A DNA stretch of 6,540 nt from positions 11,004 to 17,543 of the forward strand of contig JAOAGA010000034.1 of assembly GCA_026415985.1 (NCBI GenBank), given 5' to 3'. Made by a program: the position numbers and the translations under genes. This document shows, piece after piece, positions 1 to 6,540 of the stretch. The stretch comes from Pseudomonadota bacterium (GTDB lineage: Bacteria; CALINM01). A model generated the notes under the pieces. That model had not been told where the DNA came from. It searched no databases and worked only from the letters and a program-made list of their open reading frames with translations. How positions within the stretch are numbered: the stretch's first letter is position 1; the number at the start of each line of letters is the position of its first letter.

Positions 1-527
1 TTTACTTCTTCGAAGATCATCTTTAACCCTTTATCACACAGAGACCAATCTATATCCTCTGCAAAGGGGTTTATACCTGCCTCTGTTTGTGGAGACCACC
101 ACCCCGTGCAGAAATACTCAATCATGGTTTCTTCTGTAAATATATTCCCGTGGGCAAAGCCCGGCGGTATCCAGATCCATTCCGAATACTCTCTATCGGT
201 AAATGCAGGCATGTCATAGGCTATTATCTTGCCAAAAGTTGGAGAGTTCTTCCTGATATCAAGGGCTAAATCAATCATTCTTCCCCTTATAGTTCTAACA
301 AGCTTGCCCATATAGGGGTTCCATTGAAAGTGGAGGCCTCTGATAACATTTGCCTTTGAATAGCTCTCATTTGCCTGATAAAATTTGTATCCCTTTAAAA
401 AATCTAATCCTTCAATATCCTGTTGCCTGAAAACCTCTGTGAAATATCCCCGGTCATCTTTAAACTTGGCAAACTTAATGACCTTAATATCTTCTATTTT
501 TAAGCTCAATACCTCAAGAATTTTCAT
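1..527 (-). CDS. rmlC: RmlC-type dTDP-4-dehydrorhamnose 3,5-epimerase (partial, 3' end outside window)
   Basis: Cytosolic cupin enzyme. By family knowledge it epimerises C3 and C5 of dTDP-4-keto-6-deoxyglucose on the way to dTDP-L-rhamnose or a related deoxyhexose. The reading frame is open from the ATG at 527 to the left edge, giving 175 complete codons and no stop. The family is usually about 180-190 residues, so only the tail is missing. Visible landmarks are DRGYF at 25-29, QANESYSKANVIRGLHFQ at 51-68 with catalytic His66, MGKLVR with Lys75, DIRKNSPTFG at 90-99, WIPPGFAHG at 119-127, and EYFCTGWWSP at 137-146 with the presumed catalytic Tyr138. The two aromatics after CTG are Trp-Trp where RmlC has Tyr-Tyr. 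The region that normally carries the Asp paired with the catalytic His reads INPFAEDIDW and is about two residues short. The start overlaps the upstream glycosyltransferase by 14 bases with only a weak A-rich ribosome site. A related sugar epimerase of the same family is possible. Confidence 0.9.
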   Translation of the reverse strand, partial: MKILEVLSLKIEDIKVIKFAKFKDDRGYFTEVFRQQDIEGLDFLKGYKFYQANESYSKANVIRGLHFQWNPYMGKLVRTIRGRMIDLALDIRKNSPTFGKIIAYDMPAFTDREYSEWIWIPPGFAHGNIFTEETMIEYFCTGWWSPQTEAGINPFAEDIDWSLCDKGLKMIFEEV

Positions 528-1443
528 AATCGATTTCTTTCTTTACCGAATACTCCCTTTCTTTTACATAAAAGCTTGTAAGAAGCTCACCAATAAGACC
601 AATTGATATAAATTGTATGCCTACAATCATATTAAGGATTCCCAATAAGAGTAAGGGTAGTCTTCCGAGTATTCCACCAAACTTGAATCTAAGGTAGGCG
701 ATATAAAGATTAATTATAAACCCGATTGATAAAAGGATGAGTCCGAGTATACCGAAAAAATGGAGTGGTTTTTTCCCGAACTTGCCCAGAAACACTACGG
801 TCATTAAATCAAAAATACCTGCGATAAATCTTTTTGCACCGAACTTACTTTTTCCAAACCTTCTTTCACTATGTTTAACCTTTTCTTCATAAACCTTAAA
901 CCCTTTCATATAGGCTAAATGAGGCATAAACCTATGTAGCTCACCATAAATTGAAACTTCCTTTGCAACTTCTCTCCTCATGACCTTAAGACCACTATTC
1001 ATGTCGTGAATCTTTAATCCGGTAAGTGAAGAAGTAACATAATTTATCACTTTAGATGGCAATCTTTTACTTATAGGATCTAATCGTGGATATTTCCAGC
1101 CTATAACAAAATCATAACCTTCTTCTAATTTTTTAATAAGTCTCGGAACCTCTTCAGGTTGATCCTGCAAGTCTGCATCCATTGTAACAATGATTTCGCC
1201 CTTAGCCTTGCTGAAACCTGCTGCTAAGGCTGGTGATTTTCCGAAATTTCTTCTAAAGGATATTATCTTAACCCGTTTGTCTCTTTCGGCGAGCTCTTCG
1301 AGAATAGATAAGCTTTTATCGGTACTACCGTCATCAACAAAAATATACTCTACATTGTCGTCTTTAAAAACATCAGAGAGTCTTTCATAGAGAGGTTTTA
1401 AGCTTTCTTCTTCATTTAAAAGGGGTATAACTATTGATATCAT
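514..1443 (-). CDS. GtrB/DPM1-like family 2 glycosyltransferase with two C-terminal membrane helices
   Basis: Predicted to transfer a sugar from a nucleotide donor to polyprenyl (undecaprenyl or dolichyl) phosphate on the cytoplasmic face. The 309-residue protein has a GT-A domain at about 1-215: ISIVIPLLNEEESL at 2-15, VDDGSTD at 36-42, the metal-binding DADLQDQPEE at 89-98, HDMNSGLK at 146-153 and GELHRF at 167-172, ending with a basic RRFGKSKFG segment typical of this group. Two hydrophobic helices follow at about 228-250 and 262-288, the architecture of GtrB, ArnC and bacterial DPM-like enzymes. The ATG is forced, because an in-frame TAA lies only 9 bases upstream. No Shine-Dalgarno sequence precedes it, and a candidate extended -10 element sits 8 bases upstream, so a leaderless mRNA is possible. 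It follows a 78-base gap after the DUF2304 gene and overlaps the epimerase start by 14 bases. The sugar transferred cannot be read from the sequence. Confidence 0.92.
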   Translation of the reverse strand: MISIVIPLLNEEESLKPLYERLSDVFKDDNVEYIFVDDGSTDKSLSILEELAERDKRVKIISFRRNFGKSPALAAGFSKAKGEIIVTMDADLQDQPEEVPRLIKKLEEGYDFVIGWKYPRLDPISKRLPSKVINYVTSSLTGLKIHDMNSGLKVMRREVAKEVSIYGELHRFMPHLAYMKGFKVYEEKVKHSERRFGKSKFGAKRFIAGIFDLMTVVFLGKFGKKPLHFFGILGLILLSIGFIINLYIAYLRFKFGGILGRLPLLLLGILNMIVGIQFISIGLIGELLTSFYVKEREYSVKKEIDYENS

Positions 1444-1451
1444 AGGTTTTT

Positions 1452-1460
1452 AAAATAACA
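1452..1460 (-). promoter_or_regulatory. Candidate extended -10 promoter of the GtrB-like gene
   Basis: On the minus strand this reads TGTTATTTT, a TGnTAnnnT extended -10 pattern, with the -10 hexamer ending 8 bases before the forced ATG at 1443. A normal -10 to +1 distance would place the transcription start about 2 bases before the ATG, giving a nearly leaderless transcript and explaining the absence of a Shine-Dalgarno sequence. A weak TTTAAA lies about 17 bases upstream as a possible -35. The DNA is A+T-rich, so chance is a real alternative. Confidence 0.3.
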
Positions 1461-1521
1461 CAAATGAACTTTTTTTTAAACTTAAAATAAATCCATATTA
1501 ATGATTATATGTCATTACAAG

Positions 1522-1863
1522 TTAGAAATTATCTTCTCTATCTTTTTTTATAAGAGCAATCTCTCTTACTATCTTTGTTATATTTCTTTCTATTTGTTCT
1601 ATTTTTTCATAGATTTTAAAGAGCGTATAAAAAATGACAATAATAGATATATAAATAAAAAAATCGGCACCGCGGGTAATATTAAAAAATTTAGCTATTT
1701 TGTTTGTTTCTTCAGGAAAAATTATTGCAAGCAAGACAAAAAGCCAGAAAGATATAAAAATAAAAAACCTTCTGAGTCTTATCTCACCTCTCTTAAATGA
1801 AAATATGTTCCATATAATAATTAAAAGAACTATGGCTCCAAAAAAGATCTGATATTTAAGCAA
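1522..1863 (-). CDS. DUF2304 family small membrane protein
   Basis: A 113-residue protein with the DUF2304 (PF10066) layout: hydrophobic helices at about 5-23, 33-50 and 66-82, an RGAD motif at 64-67 just before the third helix, then a charged amphipathic, probably coiled-coil tail at about 83-110 (KIYEKIEQIERNITKIVREI). The biochemical function of the family is not established. Its genes are often found next to polyprenyl-phosphate sugar synthase-like GT2 genes, as here. The start is TTG, preceded by a strong AAGGAGG with a short 4-base spacer. It overlaps the upstream GT2 by 8 bases, which implies translational coupling. I infer that it helps recruit the otherwise soluble GT2 to the membrane, much as small subunits support DPM1 in eukaryotes. 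That role is a hypothesis. Confidence 0.85.
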   Translation of the reverse strand: MLKYQIFFGAIVLLIIIWNIFSFKRGEIRLRRFFIFISFWLFVLLAIIFPEETNKIAKFFNITRGADFFIYISIIVIFYTLFKIYEKIEQIERNITKIVREIALIKKDREDNF

Positions 1864-2542
1864 AAAACCTCCTTTTAAGCATTCTGTAAAGAATATTTAT
1901 TGCGTTTATATTTTTCTGCCCCTTCTTTAATGAGTAGTCGGTGTATCTTATAGTTACAGGGACTTCCTTGAATTTAAGACCTTCTTTCACAATCTTTTCG
2001 AGAAGTTCCGATGCATAGGCGAATCTGTCTTCGGTAAAAGATATCTTTCTAAACACGTCTGCCTTAAAGGCCCTCATTCCATTATGAACATCGGTAAGTT
2101 TGATGCCATACAAAAAATTAGTAAATGCTATTCCTCCCTTTAAGATTAACTTTCTTAACAGGGGGATTCCTTTAACAGAACCAATAAAGCGTGAGCCAAA
2201 AACTACATCTACGTTTTCTTCTGAAATGGGTTTTACTAAATTTTCAATATCATCGGGGTTGTGCTGACCATCGGCATCAAAATGAACAATTACTTTAAAC
2301 CCCTTTTTTAAAATATATTCCGTCCCCGTTTGGAGGCTTGCACCCTTACCACGATTAATTATATGCCTCAATATTACAATATCAAAATTCCTAACAATGT
2401 CATAAGTTCTGTCAGTAGAACCATCATCAACAAAAACAATATTAAAGAAACCTCTTTTAATAAGCCCTTCTATAACTTCTTTGACTACCTTTTCTTCGTT
2501 CAGAGCGGTCATCAAAATGGCTATCTCTTTTTTGTCAATCAA
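1856..2542 (-). CDS. Family 2 glycosyltransferase, DPM1-like polyprenyl-phosphate sugar synthase
   Basis: Predicted cytosolic GT-A enzyme of 228 residues that loads a sugar onto polyprenyl phosphate. Motifs counted from the TTG at 2542: ALNEE at 13-17, VDDGSTD at 38-44, NRGKGASLQTG at 63-73, the metal-binding HFDADGQH at 87-94, GSRF at 116-119, DVHNGMRAFK at 151-160, a helix with Glu179 (ELLEKIVKEG), and VPVTIRYTDYS at 194-204 followed by KKGQ. There is no transmembrane segment, unlike the GtrB-like paralogue downstream, so membrane association may depend on the adjacent DUF2304 protein. The frame extends to another TTG at 2563, but I prefer 2542: AAGGGG lies 6 bases upstream of it, and the overlap with the STT3 gene falls to 8 bases. 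The donor sugar is unknown. Glucose, mannose or N-acetylhexosamine transfer would all fit the family. Confidence 0.9.
   Translation of the reverse strand: MIDKKEIAILMTALNEEKVVKEVIEGLIKRGFFNIVFVDDGSTDRTYDIVRNFDIVILRHIINRGKGASLQTGTEYILKKGFKVIVHFDADGQHNPDDIENLVKPISEENVDVVFGSRFIGSVKGIPLLRKLILKGGIAFTNFLYGIKLTDVHNGMRAFKADVFRKISFTEDRFAYASELLEKIVKEGLKFKEVPVTIRYTDYSLKKGQKNINAINILYRMLKRRFFA
1868..1874 (-). promoter_or_regulatory. Ribosome binding site for the DUF2304 gene
   Basis: The minus strand reads AAGGAGG, a near-perfect Shine-Dalgarno match, 4 bases before the TTG at 1863. It lies inside the end of the upstream GT2 gene. It supports the TTG start, since no ATG or GTG lies nearby in frame. Confidence 0.7.
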
Positions 2543-4652
2543 GTTTAACCCCTTTTGAGCCAACCTTTGCTAAATCAATATCAAAAGTTTTTCCTTTTAA
2601 AACCGCCTCTTCAGAAAGATATAATGGGAGTTCCTTCCCGTCATAATTTAAGGTAGAGGTCTCAACGAAGCTCATCCCTTGCACTCCTGTGCTGTAGGGT
2701 ATTGTAAAACTTACAAAACCGGAAGAATCGGCCTTATATATTTGAGAAAAAATTATTCTCTGATAGGGTGTTCTTAACTTAATTATTACTGAGGCAGATT
2801 TATTCTTTCCTAAATAAGCCTTTAATCTTGCCCCTTTAACATATTCAAAAATTTTTACCCTCTTTCTCTGGTCCTCAGGGTTTATAAAATCCCCGATTAA
2901 TCTATAGTTGCCCATGTAGTTGTCGCCATGTTTACCATCAAATAAAAAGAGCATACCATAAATTCTTTGATGAGGTTCAATATAGGGATATCTGATAAAC
3001 TCAAAGGAACCCTGATCTCTGCCCAAACCCGGAATAACAATATATTTAACATTATATTTATCTAAAAGACTTTTAAATACCTCTTCTTCTGCGGTAATCG
3101 ATATTTTCACGCTGTCGATAAACCCTTCCTGATTGCTGACAAGGAGAGCATTATTTGTAAAAACCGGTCTTTGTGCAATGTGAACCAAATAATATCCCTG
3201 ATACCAGGGGGCATAGACGGTATAATCGGGTATTTTTTGCCAATCAAAGACATTTGAAGAAGGTTTTGGCGTATTATTTCTAAGCCAAAGATAGGCGCTT
3301 CTGATATCTTTATTAATTATCGAGTCAAATATGTTTTTTGTAAGATAAACCCCCTCCGTAAAGCTAATTATGACCGGCAAAATTAGTATTATCCCTAAAA
3401 CACCTTTTTTGAAGAAATATAGTCTATCCCACAGATAGAAAAAGGATATGACAATAAAAGGGGCGTATATATACCCGAACCTTCTTTGATTATAGGATAA
3501 TAGGGCAAAGAAAATTATATAAAATAATGTATATATAAAGGAAAAACGCCTATCCTTTATCAAAAATAAGATTAGAAAAGGAGGAAAAAGTAAGTAATAG
3601 AAGTAGTTAAGCCCCTTGAAGAACTCTAAATTTATCTTGCCGGAATAAAATTTTATATCAAGCACCGATTTCATCTCAAGGATGGAGATAAAGCCCTTTT
3701 CTTTTTTTGCGAAAAACAAAAAACCTTTATATATCTCTTCTTTCAGCAACCAGAAAATCAGAATGGATATAATAAGAGATATTATTGTAGCTAAAGCCTT
3801 TTTTCTGATTGAAAAATAGATGACAAGAGATATGAAAGAGATTAGACCAACAGTAAAGGCGGAAAAAAAGGAGTATCTGCCGTAACTTACAAACTCGGTA
3901 TAAGGCATAACAATGATATTTAGAAAAAGAATCAAGATGGATACAGTTAAACAATTCAACCCAAAATCAAGAAATATCTGCCAGTTTCTTTTTAATATCC
4001 CGTAGGTAAATAAAAAAAGGACTGTTAATCCTAAATAAAGTATAGCTCCCTGCCATACAAGAAAAAGAGAAAAGGTAAAGAAAATATATAGAAATCTGTT
4101 TAACCGGGTCTTTTCCTCTAAAAACTCTCCTAAATAGTAAAAACTCATAAGAGCTAAAAATGTTTCAATGGCGTGATGGTCTCCTGCCAACGCAATGGTG
4201 TACCAATAATGAAGGGGAACTATAGTAGCTACCAAGGCACAAATGATAGCTATGAATCTTCTTTCAAAAATTTTTTTCGCGAAAAGATATACAGGAATTG
4301 CAATCATAGCACCAAAAAAGACAGAGGTCATGGAAGTTACCAACTCAACGGTATGTTCTGTGGGAGAACCTAAGCCGAAGATAAAGGACAGAAGGGCAAG
4401 AAAAATCGGATAGAAGGGCGGACTTGGAAACTCGGATAATTTCGGATAACTTAAGAAAATATCAGCCATAGGAATTTCAGGAAAGTTGTGTAAGATAGTT
4501 AATACCCTTCTTACGTAATAGCTATTATCTGGCTGGTAAAAGAGTATCGGTGATTCATTTATCCTCTCCCAAAAAGGAATAACCCTTATTAAAAACCCGA
4601 AAAAAACTATAAAAAAAACTGATAAGTTTTCAACTGACAGGTATTTTCTCAA
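2535..4652 (-). CDS. STT3/AglB/PglB-type oligosaccharyltransferase
   Basis: A 705-residue GT-C membrane enzyme predicted to transfer a glycan from a lipid carrier to Asn side chains outside the cytoplasmic membrane. About a dozen hydrophobic helices fill residues 10-430, and a soluble domain follows. Family landmarks: Asp42 in QPDNSYYVRR (first catalytic acidic motif, external loop 1); GDHHAIE at 157-163 (second acidic/metal motif, Asp158 and Glu163); Glu326 in SILEMKS (equivalent of the TIXE/SVSE loop); QRRF at 389-392; and APWYQGYYLVHIAQRPVFTNN at 481-501, which occupies the WWDYG position but lacks its Asp. The C-terminal part (VKGARL at 605-610, IPYSTGVQG at 651-659) looks like the beta-sandwich domain seen in archaeal AglB. 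The start is TTG at 4652, supported by GGGGGAG 7 bases upstream. It overlaps the upstream GT2 by 23 bases and the downstream GT2 by 8. Family assignment is firm, but substrate and sequon are not. Confidence 0.9.
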   Translation of the reverse strand: MRKYLSVENLSVFFIVFFGFLIRVIPFWERINESPILFYQPDNSYYVRRVLTILHNFPEIPMADIFLSYPKLSEFPSPPFYPIFLALLSFIFGLGSPTEHTVELVTSMTSVFFGAMIAIPVYLFAKKIFERRFIAIICALVATIVPLHYWYTIALAGDHHAIETFLALMSFYYLGEFLEEKTRLNRFLYIFFTFSLFLVWQGAILYLGLTVLFLFTYGILKRNWQIFLDFGLNCLTVSILILFLNIIVMPYTEFVSYGRYSFFSAFTVGLISFISLVIYFSIRKKALATIISLIISILIFWLLKEEIYKGFLFFAKKEKGFISILEMKSVLDIKFYSGKINLEFFKGLNYFYYLLFPPFLILFLIKDRRFSFIYTLFYIIFFALLSYNQRRFGYIYAPFIVISFFYLWDRLYFFKKGVLGIILILPVIISFTEGVYLTKNIFDSIINKDIRSAYLWLRNNTPKPSSNVFDWQKIPDYTVYAPWYQGYYLVHIAQRPVFTNNALLVSNQEGFIDSVKISITAEEEVFKSLLDKYNVKYIVIPGLGRDQGSFEFIRYPYIEPHQRIYGMLFLFDGKHGDNYMGNYRLIGDFINPEDQRKRVKIFEYVKGARLKAYLGKNKSASVIIKLRTPYQRIIFSQIYKADSSGFVSFTIPYSTGVQGMSFVETSTLNYDGKELPLYLSEEAVLKGKTFDIDLAKVGSKGVKLD
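2549..2554 (-). promoter_or_regulatory. Ribosome binding site that decides the start of the DPM1-like GT2
   Basis: AAGGGG on the minus strand with a 6-base spacer to the TTG at 2542. The alternative TTG at 2563 has only AAAGG immediately against it, too close to work, so this site favours the shorter protein. Confidence 0.6.
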
Positions 4653-5580
4653 TCCTGATCTCCCCCTCTCTGATCTTTTTAAATGGTGCCCTCAAAATAC
4701 CATAGATGGTTCCTATGCCATAAATTATATGTAATAAAAAACTTGTAAATGGTAAAACTAATATCCGTAAATCCTTGTCTTTTATAGCCTTCATTACACT
4801 GTCAATTAACAAAATAAGAAAATACACATAAATTGGATAGAGAAAATAGCCCCCCTTAAACAAAGAAAAAATTAGATAAATCAGGAAAAATAGGGGGACA
4901 AAATTTGTAAAATTAAAGCTTTTAGGATAATAAACCGTTTGTTCGCCTCTTCCTCTTCCGTAGTTAAATACCTGTTTAATAAAGGCCTTTAGTGTCTGTC
5001 TGGGGGTTCTGATTATATAGGCAGAAGGGTCGTATATAATCTTTTTCCCGCTGACCCTTACCTTTTCCATCAACTCGTTTTCTTCATTCGGGTATAGCCT
5101 CTCATTGAGTCCGCCATAAAAAAGAAAATCCTTCTTTTTCATAACCATATTACAAAGGATGACCTCTTTTTCAGTTGTTTCTCTGACTTCTCCGGTTTTT
5201 AAATATCTGCTTCTTGAAGATCCGGTGCAAAATAAGGACTCAAATGTTTTACCAAAAACAAAAGGCAGGAGAGGTAGTTTATCAGGTTTAATACTTGGCC
5301 CTCCTGCAATACTAACATTATCATCAGCCATTAAATGATTAACAAGTTTCATTAGAGTGTCTTCGGCAGGCAAGGAATCATTGTCAAGAAAATAAATAAT
5401 CTCCCCTTGAGCTATAGATACAACTCTATTTCTCTGCATAGAGGGGTTTTTACCATAGACCAGATATACTTCTAAAAGTTCTTTGGGATAATTAAGTCTT
5501 TTAACTGCTGAAAGAGCTATAGGCTCAAGCCCCGGCTTGACGGGGATAACTATCGTTACCTTAGGTAGTTTATGGTTCAT
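4630..5580 (-). CDS. Membrane-anchored family 2 glycosyltransferase
   Basis: A 316-residue GT2 with an N-terminal GT-A domain (about 1-205) and three hydrophobic segments near 219-231, 234-251 and 263-295. The N-terminal beta strand reads KVTIVIPVKPG at 7-17. Instead of the usual DDGSTD, the next strand leads into VYGKNPSMQRNRVV at 41-54, the variant seen in a subset of GT2 proteins. The metal-binding motif is FLDNDS at 64-69, and GGLNERLYPNEENEL at 146-160 occupies the acceptor/catalytic acid region, with Glu156, Glu157 and Glu159 available. A basic FNYGRGRGEQ at 195-204 precedes the membrane segments. It probably adds a sugar to a lipid-linked glycan that STT3 uses, since STT3 overlaps it by 23 bases. 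The ATG is forced by an in-frame TAA about 15 bases upstream. No Shine-Dalgarno is visible, and a candidate extended -10 lies 9 bases before it. Donor and acceptor cannot be predicted. Confidence 0.9.
   Translation of the reverse strand: MNHKLPKVTIVIPVKPGLEPIALSAVKRLNYPKELLEVYLVYGKNPSMQRNRVVSIAQGEIIYFLDNDSLPAEDTLMKLVNHLMADDNVSIAGGPSIKPDKLPLLPFVFGKTFESLFCTGSSRSRYLKTGEVRETTEKEVILCNMVMKKKDFLFYGGLNERLYPNEENELMEKVRVSGKKIIYDPSAYIIRTPRQTLKAFIKQVFNYGRGRGEQTVYYPKSFNFTNFVPLFFLIYLIFSLFKGGYFLYPIYVYFLILLIDSVMKAIKDKDLRILVLPFTSFLLHIIYGIGTIYGILRAPFKKIREGEIRIEKIPVS
4660..4666 (-). promoter_or_regulatory. Ribosome binding site for the STT3 gene
   Basis: GGGGGAG on the minus strand, 7 bases before the TTG at 4652 and inside the coding sequence of the preceding glycosyltransferase. 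It supports the TTG start and the 23-base gene overlap. Confidence 0.6.
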
Positions 5581-5613: not shown

Positions 5614-5667
5614 TTAGAAGGTAAGAGCTATCTCTCTACCTTCAACGACATCTTCTTTGTTATTCAT
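5614..5667 (-). CDS. Possible 17-codon small ORF overlapping the DUF2723-like stop
   Basis: I do not recognise this peptide. The ATG at 5667 overlaps the upstream stop in an ATGA, and AAGGAG at 5682-5677 lies 9 bases upstream, so it has a better ribosome site than the glycosyltransferase that follows. It encodes MNNKEDVVEGREIALTF and stops with TAA at 5616-5614. A hairpin (5643-5617) occupies its second half and ends exactly at the stop codon. It could be a leader peptide coupled to the hairpin, the remnant of a decayed gene, or coincidence. The charged composition shows no membrane or signal segment. Short length keeps confidence low. Confidence 0.3.
   Translation of the reverse strand: MNNKEDVVEGREIALTF
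5617..5643 (-). other. RNA hairpin in the gap before the GT2 gene
   Basis: The minus-strand arms GAAGGTA and TACCTTC pair, and inside them AGAG pairs with CTCT around an ATAG loop, leaving one bulged G on the 5' side: 11 base pairs in 27 bases. It begins 20 bases after the stop of the DUF2723-like gene. The downstream TAATTATAG is not a U-tract, so it is not a standard intrinsic terminator. Roles could include mRNA 3'-end protection, a processing site, an attenuator tied to the small ORF, or a non-canonical terminator. Confidence 0.45.
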
Positions 5668-6540
5668 TTAAAACTACTCCTTAAGCTTGAATAGAAGCTA
5701 AAGGCAGTTCTTTCATTTTTATTATTTCTTAATTGTTCCATATTTAAGAGCGAAATCTCTTCTATTATTTTGTCTGATCTGTCAAAGGAGTTTATTCTCA
5801 AAAAATCAGGGTTAAGGTTGTCGGTCTTTTGGTATTCGTAGAAGGGACCATTAATATCAAGCTTTAAACTCACTGGCAGTTCTTTTTTGTCTATAAATGT
5901 CAGAAAGACTCTTTTATTATTAAACTCCTTCTGAAATAATATCACTGCCTTAAGAATGGCCTTTTTGTTATCTATCTCCCCTTCGTAACCCTTTGTATAG
6001 GTAGTTCCAAACTTTATACTTTCCCTGAAATTCCATTTTTTACCTAACATGGACAGGGGAACAAGGGTAATATCCTCTCTGAATTTACAAACCTTCTGTT
6101 CAAAAAACATTGGAAAGTCTTCCTCTCCTCCCTGATTTATTAAAATAGCATTTCGAGGAAGCATAGCCATTTTTGATTTTGTAAAGTTATAACTTTTATG
6201 ACTAAATTTCGTTAGCTCAAAATTAAACAGGTAATTTTTCAAGTTAACCAAGAGTCCTATTGTTATTATCCCTATCAGAATTATCTGGAATGGTTTTTTC
6301 AGATAGTAAAGAGATTCACCTGCAGTGTAGGCAAGAATAAAGTAAACCGGTAAAAAGAATGGGCTATAGGTTATATACATCTTTTCTGGTTCAATCTCAT
6401 CATAACCAAGCAAAATAACGACAAGAACCGAATAACAAAGGATTATAAAGATATTCTTAATAAAAAGGTTTCTGTTTTTCAAAAAGACAATTATTAATGC
6501 AAGAAAGGCAATAAGAGAGTTTAATATCCCTATCTCATAT
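5664..6540 (-). CDS. DUF2723-like multi-pass membrane protein (partial, C-terminal 291 residues)
   Basis: The frame is open to the right edge, so this is the C-terminal part of a longer protein. The TTG at 6482 should not be taken as its start, because the residues before it (EIGILNSLIAFLALIIVFL) form a membrane helix. Counting from the window edge, hydrophobic helices lie at about 5-20, 28-45, 57-78 and 84-100, followed by a soluble tail. The tail contains AMLPRNAILINQGGEEDFPMFFEQ at 125-148, then FREDITLVPLSML at 153-165 and a Trp at 169. This resembles DUF2723 proteins (protein O-mannosyltransferase-like, related to TMEM260), where a strand ending in N/G-G-D-n-D-x-F-P is followed by R-x-D-V-x-V-V-N-x-S-L-L. 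By that resemblance it may be a GT-C sugar transferase acting outside the membrane. The catalytic N-terminal loops are not in view, so function is inferred only from the tail. It is separated from the next large gene by 83 bases. Confidence 0.65.
   Translation of the reverse strand, partial: YEIGILNSLIAFLALIIVFLKNRNLFIKNIFIILCYSVLVVILLGYDEIEPEKMYITYSPFFLPVYFILAYTAGESLYYLKKPFQIILIGIITIGLLVNLKNYLFNFELTKFSHKSYNFTKSKMAMLPRNAILINQGGEEDFPMFFEQKVCKFREDITLVPLSMLGKKWNFRESIKFGTTYTKGYEGEIDNKKAILKAVILFQKEFNNKRVFLTFIDKKELPVSLKLDINGPFYEYQKTDNLNPDFLRINSFDRSDKIIEEISLLNMEQLRNNKNERTAFSFYSSLRSSFK

Follow-up and report, generated by a model that had tools for sequence, protein, structure and literature searches.

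The DNA analysed here is a window of 6,540 nucleotides that occupies positions 11004–17543 of the 17543-nucleotide contig C89 and runs to the contig end. It carries an operon whose most plausible role is protein glycosylation through a lipid carrier, built around a putatively active member of an uncharacterised STT3 class lacking the WWDYG motif. That the cluster is fed by polyprenyl-phosphate sugars and that its STT3-type enzyme glycosylates protein at a non-classical acceptor is, in our estimate, about an even bet (probability roughly 0.5). The evidence comprises the observed gene order, homology, a predicted fold, the catalytic residues, the class-wide loss of WWDYG and the adjacency of pilin genes in relatives.

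The contig belongs to a 1.57-Mb metagenome-assembled genome (G000), 84% complete, whose hot-spring host we infer to be a member of the uncultured candidate phylum CALINM01; a Baikal hot-spring survey named this 'new phylum CALINM01' (PMC12730654). Two genomes of the same family alone, G001 and G002, served as near relatives for comparison (contigs CALINM010000118.1 and JAOABK010000015.1, respectively).

All genes of the window lie on the minus strand. The overlapping set begins with a GT2 glycosyltransferase with weak MftF/AglG-like matches (4630–5580), for which 64% identical orthologs occupy the corresponding place at loci L019 and L021 of the near relatives. It continues with an STT3/AglB-like GT-C membrane protein of 705 residues (2535–4652), a DPM1/PpgS/AglJ-like GT2 (1856–2542; GT2 family E 1e-28) whose ortholog in L019 is 69% identical and holds the same place, and a small DUF2304 membrane protein (1522–1863; PF10066, E 7e-23). 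The coordinates bear out the overlaps given in the original prediction: 23 bases between the GT2 and the STT3-like gene, 8 between the STT3-like and DPM1-like genes, and 8 between the DPM1-like and DUF2304 genes. They also place after this set, as described there, a GtrB-like GT2 and an RmlC-like gene. The former, an ArnC/GtrB-like protein with C-terminal hydrophobic segments (514–1443; PRK10714, E 1e-57, below cut-off), follows DUF2304 after a 78-base gap, and the latter, a dTDP-sugar epimerase homologue cut by the window end (3–527; PF00908, 7e-39), overlaps it by 14 bases. The start of the DPM1-like gene was set at the TTG at 2542, which matches the start in a relative; the first possible TTG is at 2563. 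Past the RmlC-like gene and outside the window lie a DAO-family FAD oxidoreductase, a GT4 and, identified by eye, DedA-like and ClpB-like genes. At the other side, the contig end cuts a membrane protein of which the C-terminal part is present (5664–6539). It has no family match and does not adjoin the cluster in G001 or G002, and its pattern recalls that of DUF2723/TMEM260-like GT-C proteins.

The Pfam STT3 model (PF02516) matches neither the 705-residue protein nor any other protein of G000. The assignment was examined at the levels of profile, fold and residue. TIGR04154 matches with E 8e-50 and 170 bits, the cut-off of 450 not being reached, and models of the AglB core and of the long peripheral domain (AglB_L1) give weak matches. 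A profile built from five same-lineage relatives finds Archaeoglobus fulgidus AglB (AfAglB) over its whole length (E 1e-51) and human STT3A/B at E ~1e-11. The AlphaFold model (pLDDT 82) shows a predicted GT-C fold with a periplasmic AglB/STT3 core domain, matching human STT3A with a Z score of 29.7 and AfAglB (3waj) with 29.2 over 623 of the 705 residues; weaker structural matches are PglB (~23), DPY19 (23.3), Pmt4 (~20) and ArnT (17–18). Residues D42, D158, H160, E326 and R391 align with D47, D161, H163, E360 and R426 of AfAglB. The EL1 aspartate, the EL2 DxD/DHH motif (D158-H159-H160), the glutamate of TIxE (S-I-L-E326) and the conserved arginine are thus all present, and the same five AfAglB positions are almost invariant across 34 bacterial relatives. 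Archaeal AglB (AfAglB-L; 3waj, 5gmy and 7e9s) resembles the window protein in fold, in its full-length match, in the long peripheral C-terminal domain and in the catalytic Asp, DHH, TIxE Glu and Arg, but the two are only 20% identical, WWDYG is replaced by PWYQG, PF02516 is silent on the window protein and the host is bacterial. Sequence and model together support a real STT3/AglB homologue with its catalytic residues intact. The STT3 identity first proposed stands as to homology, fold and catalytic residues, and fails on the Pfam match and the WWDYG motif.

WWDYG of AfAglB aligns with P482-W-Y-Q-G486 in the window protein. This motif, together with DK/MI, builds the Ser/Thr-binding pocket behind the sequon (PMC8342417); loss of the pocket is judged here on its WWDYG part. 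The motif region is covered in 33 bacterial relatives from Myxococcota, Planctomycetota, Gemmatimonadota, Marinimicrobia, Fischerbacteria and unnamed phyla. None of them has the first Trp (W550) or the Tyr (Y553), 8 have the Asp (D552), 24 the second Trp and all 33 the Gly. Further cases were sought phylum-wide in small phyla, comprising 24, 2, 4 and 2 genomes. PF02516 hits in the same 386-genome sample served as a control: the 13 classical bacterial oligosaccharyltransferases (OSTs) examined among them all retain WWD(Y/F)G, with an EL2 motif of DTD/DTM type, which argues that the loss is specific to the class. One bacterial AglB proper, at L029 (Dehalococcoidia), retains WWDYG, so that neither the DHH type nor a bacterial host simply accounts for the loss. 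The 5.2-kb contig carrying this canonical AglB is circularly permuted, with a terminal repeat, and may be mis-binned or a mobile circle. Since WWDYG was the feature tested and is absent, the window protein is not counted as a classical N-OST.

In phylogenetic analysis the class without WWDYG falls on the AglB side, separated from PglB (support 100). A first tree gave the class a single origin (SH-aLRT 97); in a second tree, from which the motif columns and long branches were removed, it was not cleanly apart from two AglB-type rows. The claim of a strict single clade was dropped for this reason, and our conclusion is limited to the class being nearer AglB than PglB. G000 also encodes a second paralogue on contig C128, 28% identical and likewise without WWDYG (SWHLG), and G002 encodes a third type of 832 residues with PWDHG, adjoining a DPM1-like gene. 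The C128 paralogue lies at L012 (9508–17322) with flavodoxin-like, GT2, PMT_2-type GT-C, RmlD-like and Nudix-like genes. The original prediction had named a separate complete OST operon in the genome as evidence against itself; none was found, only this paralogue.

The sequence of the DPM1-like GT2 points to a probable polyprenyl-phosphate-sugar synthase. Its best NCBIfam match is PpgS (E 4e-52), with AglJ at 2e-28, both below curated cut-offs; against the PpgS equivalog it scores 176.8 bits where 370 are required. The ArnC/GtrB-like GT2 is probably a second such synthase. PpgS (Rv3631) produces polyprenyl-P-GalNAc, and the small membrane protein Rv3632 is thought to anchor it (PMC3485146, PMC6487176). 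The window shows the same type of arrangement, a DPM1-like GT2 adjoining a small membrane protein, and from the role of Rv3632 beside PpgS the DUF2304 protein is probably the membrane partner of the DPM1-like enzyme. The likeness to the Mycobacterium tuberculosis pair lies in this juxtaposition, whereas the acceptor there is arabinogalactan and the window enzyme falls below the PpgS cut-off. A DPM1-like gene stands next to an STT3-like gene at four more loci (L020, L026, L083 and L088), and L088 has a DPM1-DUF2304 pair with the same 8-base overlap.

The cluster recurs in both near relatives, although without RmlC and, in G001, with a deletion. In G002 (L019) the gene order is otherwise identical, with overlaps of 20 (GT2/STT3), 8 and 8 bases; the 8-base overlaps shared at both DPM1 junctions indicate that the arrangement is not due to chance. 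The order is also kept in G001 (L021), and the ArnC/GtrB-like GT2 has orthologs 77–80% identical in the two loci. In the G001 copy the STT3-like gene is incomplete and the DPM1-like gene for the most part missing: on its contig C118 (L016/L021, 4573–5389), the STT3-like gene ends after ~235 homologous codons, and what is left of the DPM1-like gene, its final ~30 codons, is joined to it in another frame. This junction reflects either one deletion that removed both functions together or an assembly collapse. RmlC, missing from the cluster in both relatives, was rejected as a core part. The window RmlC-like protein scores 139 bits against the TIGR01221 cut-off of 155.75, and it carries FCTGWW in place of the KCTDYY of its RmlC-like counterpart at L088. 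A Trp here replaces the Tyr that we take to be catalytic, so the protein may be no true 3,5-epimerase.

The view that the cluster spans a whole pathway, from sugar nucleotide synthesis to transfer, was not supported. RmlC is not conserved, and searches of the incomplete genome G000 (84%) found no RmlB over cut-off, no PglC/WecA-type transferase (PF02397 giving no match) and no Wzx-type flippase (PF01943). G001 and G002 do have members of both PF02397 and PF01943 elsewhere in their genomes. G000 has a single PF00953 protein, which its position between MurF and MurD identifies as MraY. The lack of PF02397 and PF01943, with MraY the sole PF00953 protein, is in keeping with a donor that the DPM1-like enzyme makes on polyprenyl monophosphate, a weak argument given that 16% of the genome is missing. 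By PF02397, PF01943 and the WWDYG motif, no Campylobacter-type pgl gene set (PglC transferase, PglK/Wzx flippase and a PglB with WWDYG) was recognised in G000. PglB of Campylobacter and Desulfovibrio (GT66) is likewise a bacterial enzyme of STT3 fold (Z 23), but PglB-type enzymes differ from the window class in their DTD/DTM-type EL2 motif, their intact WWD(Y/F)G and their separate, fully supported group in the trees. Of the original suggestion, the joining of an STT3 homologue and lipid-carrier sugar synthases in one operon, its distance from Campylobacter-type pgl loci and its uncharacterised lineage are supported, while N-glycosylation is unsupported, the WWDYG sequon-recognition motif being gone.

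Candidate acceptors are encoded beside several relatives of the enzyme. In six lineages (L082/L087, L084, L086, L088, L091 and L092) a type IV pilin or pseudopilin gene lies at most ~1 kb from the STT3-like gene. All six proteins scanned, from L082, L084, L086, L088 and L092, score over the Pfam N_methyl cut-off, as does a pilin of the more distant L160. Across 31 loci with 12 pilins, 2.1 would be expected no further than 1.1 kb from the STT3-like gene and 7 are observed (P 0.0017), a value flattered by the pattern having been noticed before it was tested; 25 of the 31 loci have no pilin near, and pilins are common in general. Four of seven pilins examined (those of L082, L084 and L088, and one of the L086 pair) lack the sequon N-X-S/T, as would be the case were the enzyme no longer dependent on it. 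Genes adjacent to pilins have earlier been shown to encode their glycosyltransferases, namely TfpO, TfpW and PglL (PMC11841053, PMC3643930). These share with the six lineages a membrane glycosyltransferase gene beside a pilin; none is reported as STT3-like in the cited literature, PglL and PilO/TfpO being related to O-antigen ligases, and the window cluster lacks a pilin gene. Our search of the open-access literature found neither bacterial STT3 proteins lacking WWDYG nor STT3-type pilin transferases, which does not prove their absence. A pilin as the window's own substrate was considered and set aside, none being encoded on the 17.5-kb contig C89 or at the paralogue locus. With no pilin or other obvious substrate on the window contig, the acceptor evidence comes from distant relatives (~20–27% identity). 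TPR-membrane proteins, TMTC-like by eye, adjoin the STT3-like genes of L084, L159 and L160, with pilins nearby in L084 and L160, and may serve the same system as additional glycosyltransferases.

One alternative is that the protein is an ordinary AglB-like N-OST acting on Asn-X-Ser/Thr, its pocket rebuilt by other residues so that the loss of WWDYG is functionally neutral. The catalytic residues, TIxE and the long AglB_L1 domain do resemble archaeal AglB, and the AglJ-like and AglG-like glycosyltransferases recall the Haloferax pathway. We regard this as unlikely, if a serious contender, because WWDYG is the described Ser/Thr pocket (PMC8342417), two of its residues are lost in every one of the 33 relatives, and most of the pilins examined near relatives have no sequon. 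Slightly less likely still is that the enzyme instead decorates lipid A, O-antigen or another envelope polysaccharide in the manner of ArnT or mycobacterial Emb/Aft. Two polyprenyl-P-sugar synthases in the cluster, one of them ArnC-like, would suit such a role, as would the nearby GT4, RmlC-like and other sugar genes, and ArnT and AftA match the fold at a lower Z of 16–18. The Z of ~29 for STT3/AglB, however, is far above the 13–18 of ArnT/Emb, the OST-type TIxE Glu and DHH are kept, and relatives adjoin pilins. A DPY19-like reaction, in which polyprenyl phosphate donates one sugar to a protein residue other than Asn, suggested by DPY19 C-mannosyltransferase being the top non-OST structural match and using Dol-P-Man (entry title 7zli) and by the DPM1-like synthase in the operon, is very hard to credit at just 10% sequence identity and with the positions equivalent to the OST metal site and TIxE conserved in the STT3-like class.

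Under the preferred reading of an STT3-type protein glycosyltransferase, the chemistry, donor identity, flipping and acceptor are deduced as follows. The DPM1-like GT2, anchored at the membrane by DUF2304, would load a sugar onto polyprenyl phosphate, and the ArnC-like GT2 would produce a second polyprenyl-phosphate sugar; other glycosyltransferases of the cluster may lengthen the glycan. A carrier would flip the loaded lipid across the membrane, where the STT3-like enzyme would pass the sugar or short glycan to an exported protein by means of its catalytic Asps, DHH and TIxE Glu. With the Ser/Thr pocket of WWDYG lost, the classical Asn-X-Ser/Thr sequon is probably not what the enzyme modifies; TIxE and the EL1 Asp, acceptor-binding elements of known OSTs, are retained, so Asn could still be the acceptor under another +2 rule. 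In some relatives the acceptor is probably a type IV pilin.

More broadly, and tentatively, many bacterial phyla could possess an undescribed class of AglB-like protein glycosyltransferases without WWDYG, fed by polyprenyl monophosphate sugars, acting at non-sequon sites and devoted to type IV pilins in several lineages, of which the window would be the CALINM01 representative; we think this possible but somewhat against the odds. The Asn-X-Ser/Thr rule is usually taken as universal for STT3 enzymes and is tied to WWDYG. If the reading is true, a widespread bacterial class that has the catalytic residues but no WWDYG would be a natural test of the motif's role, and glycoengineering may gain from it a new sequon or a new linkage of sugar to protein. 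It would also suggest STT3-type pilin glycosylation in phyla where none is known.
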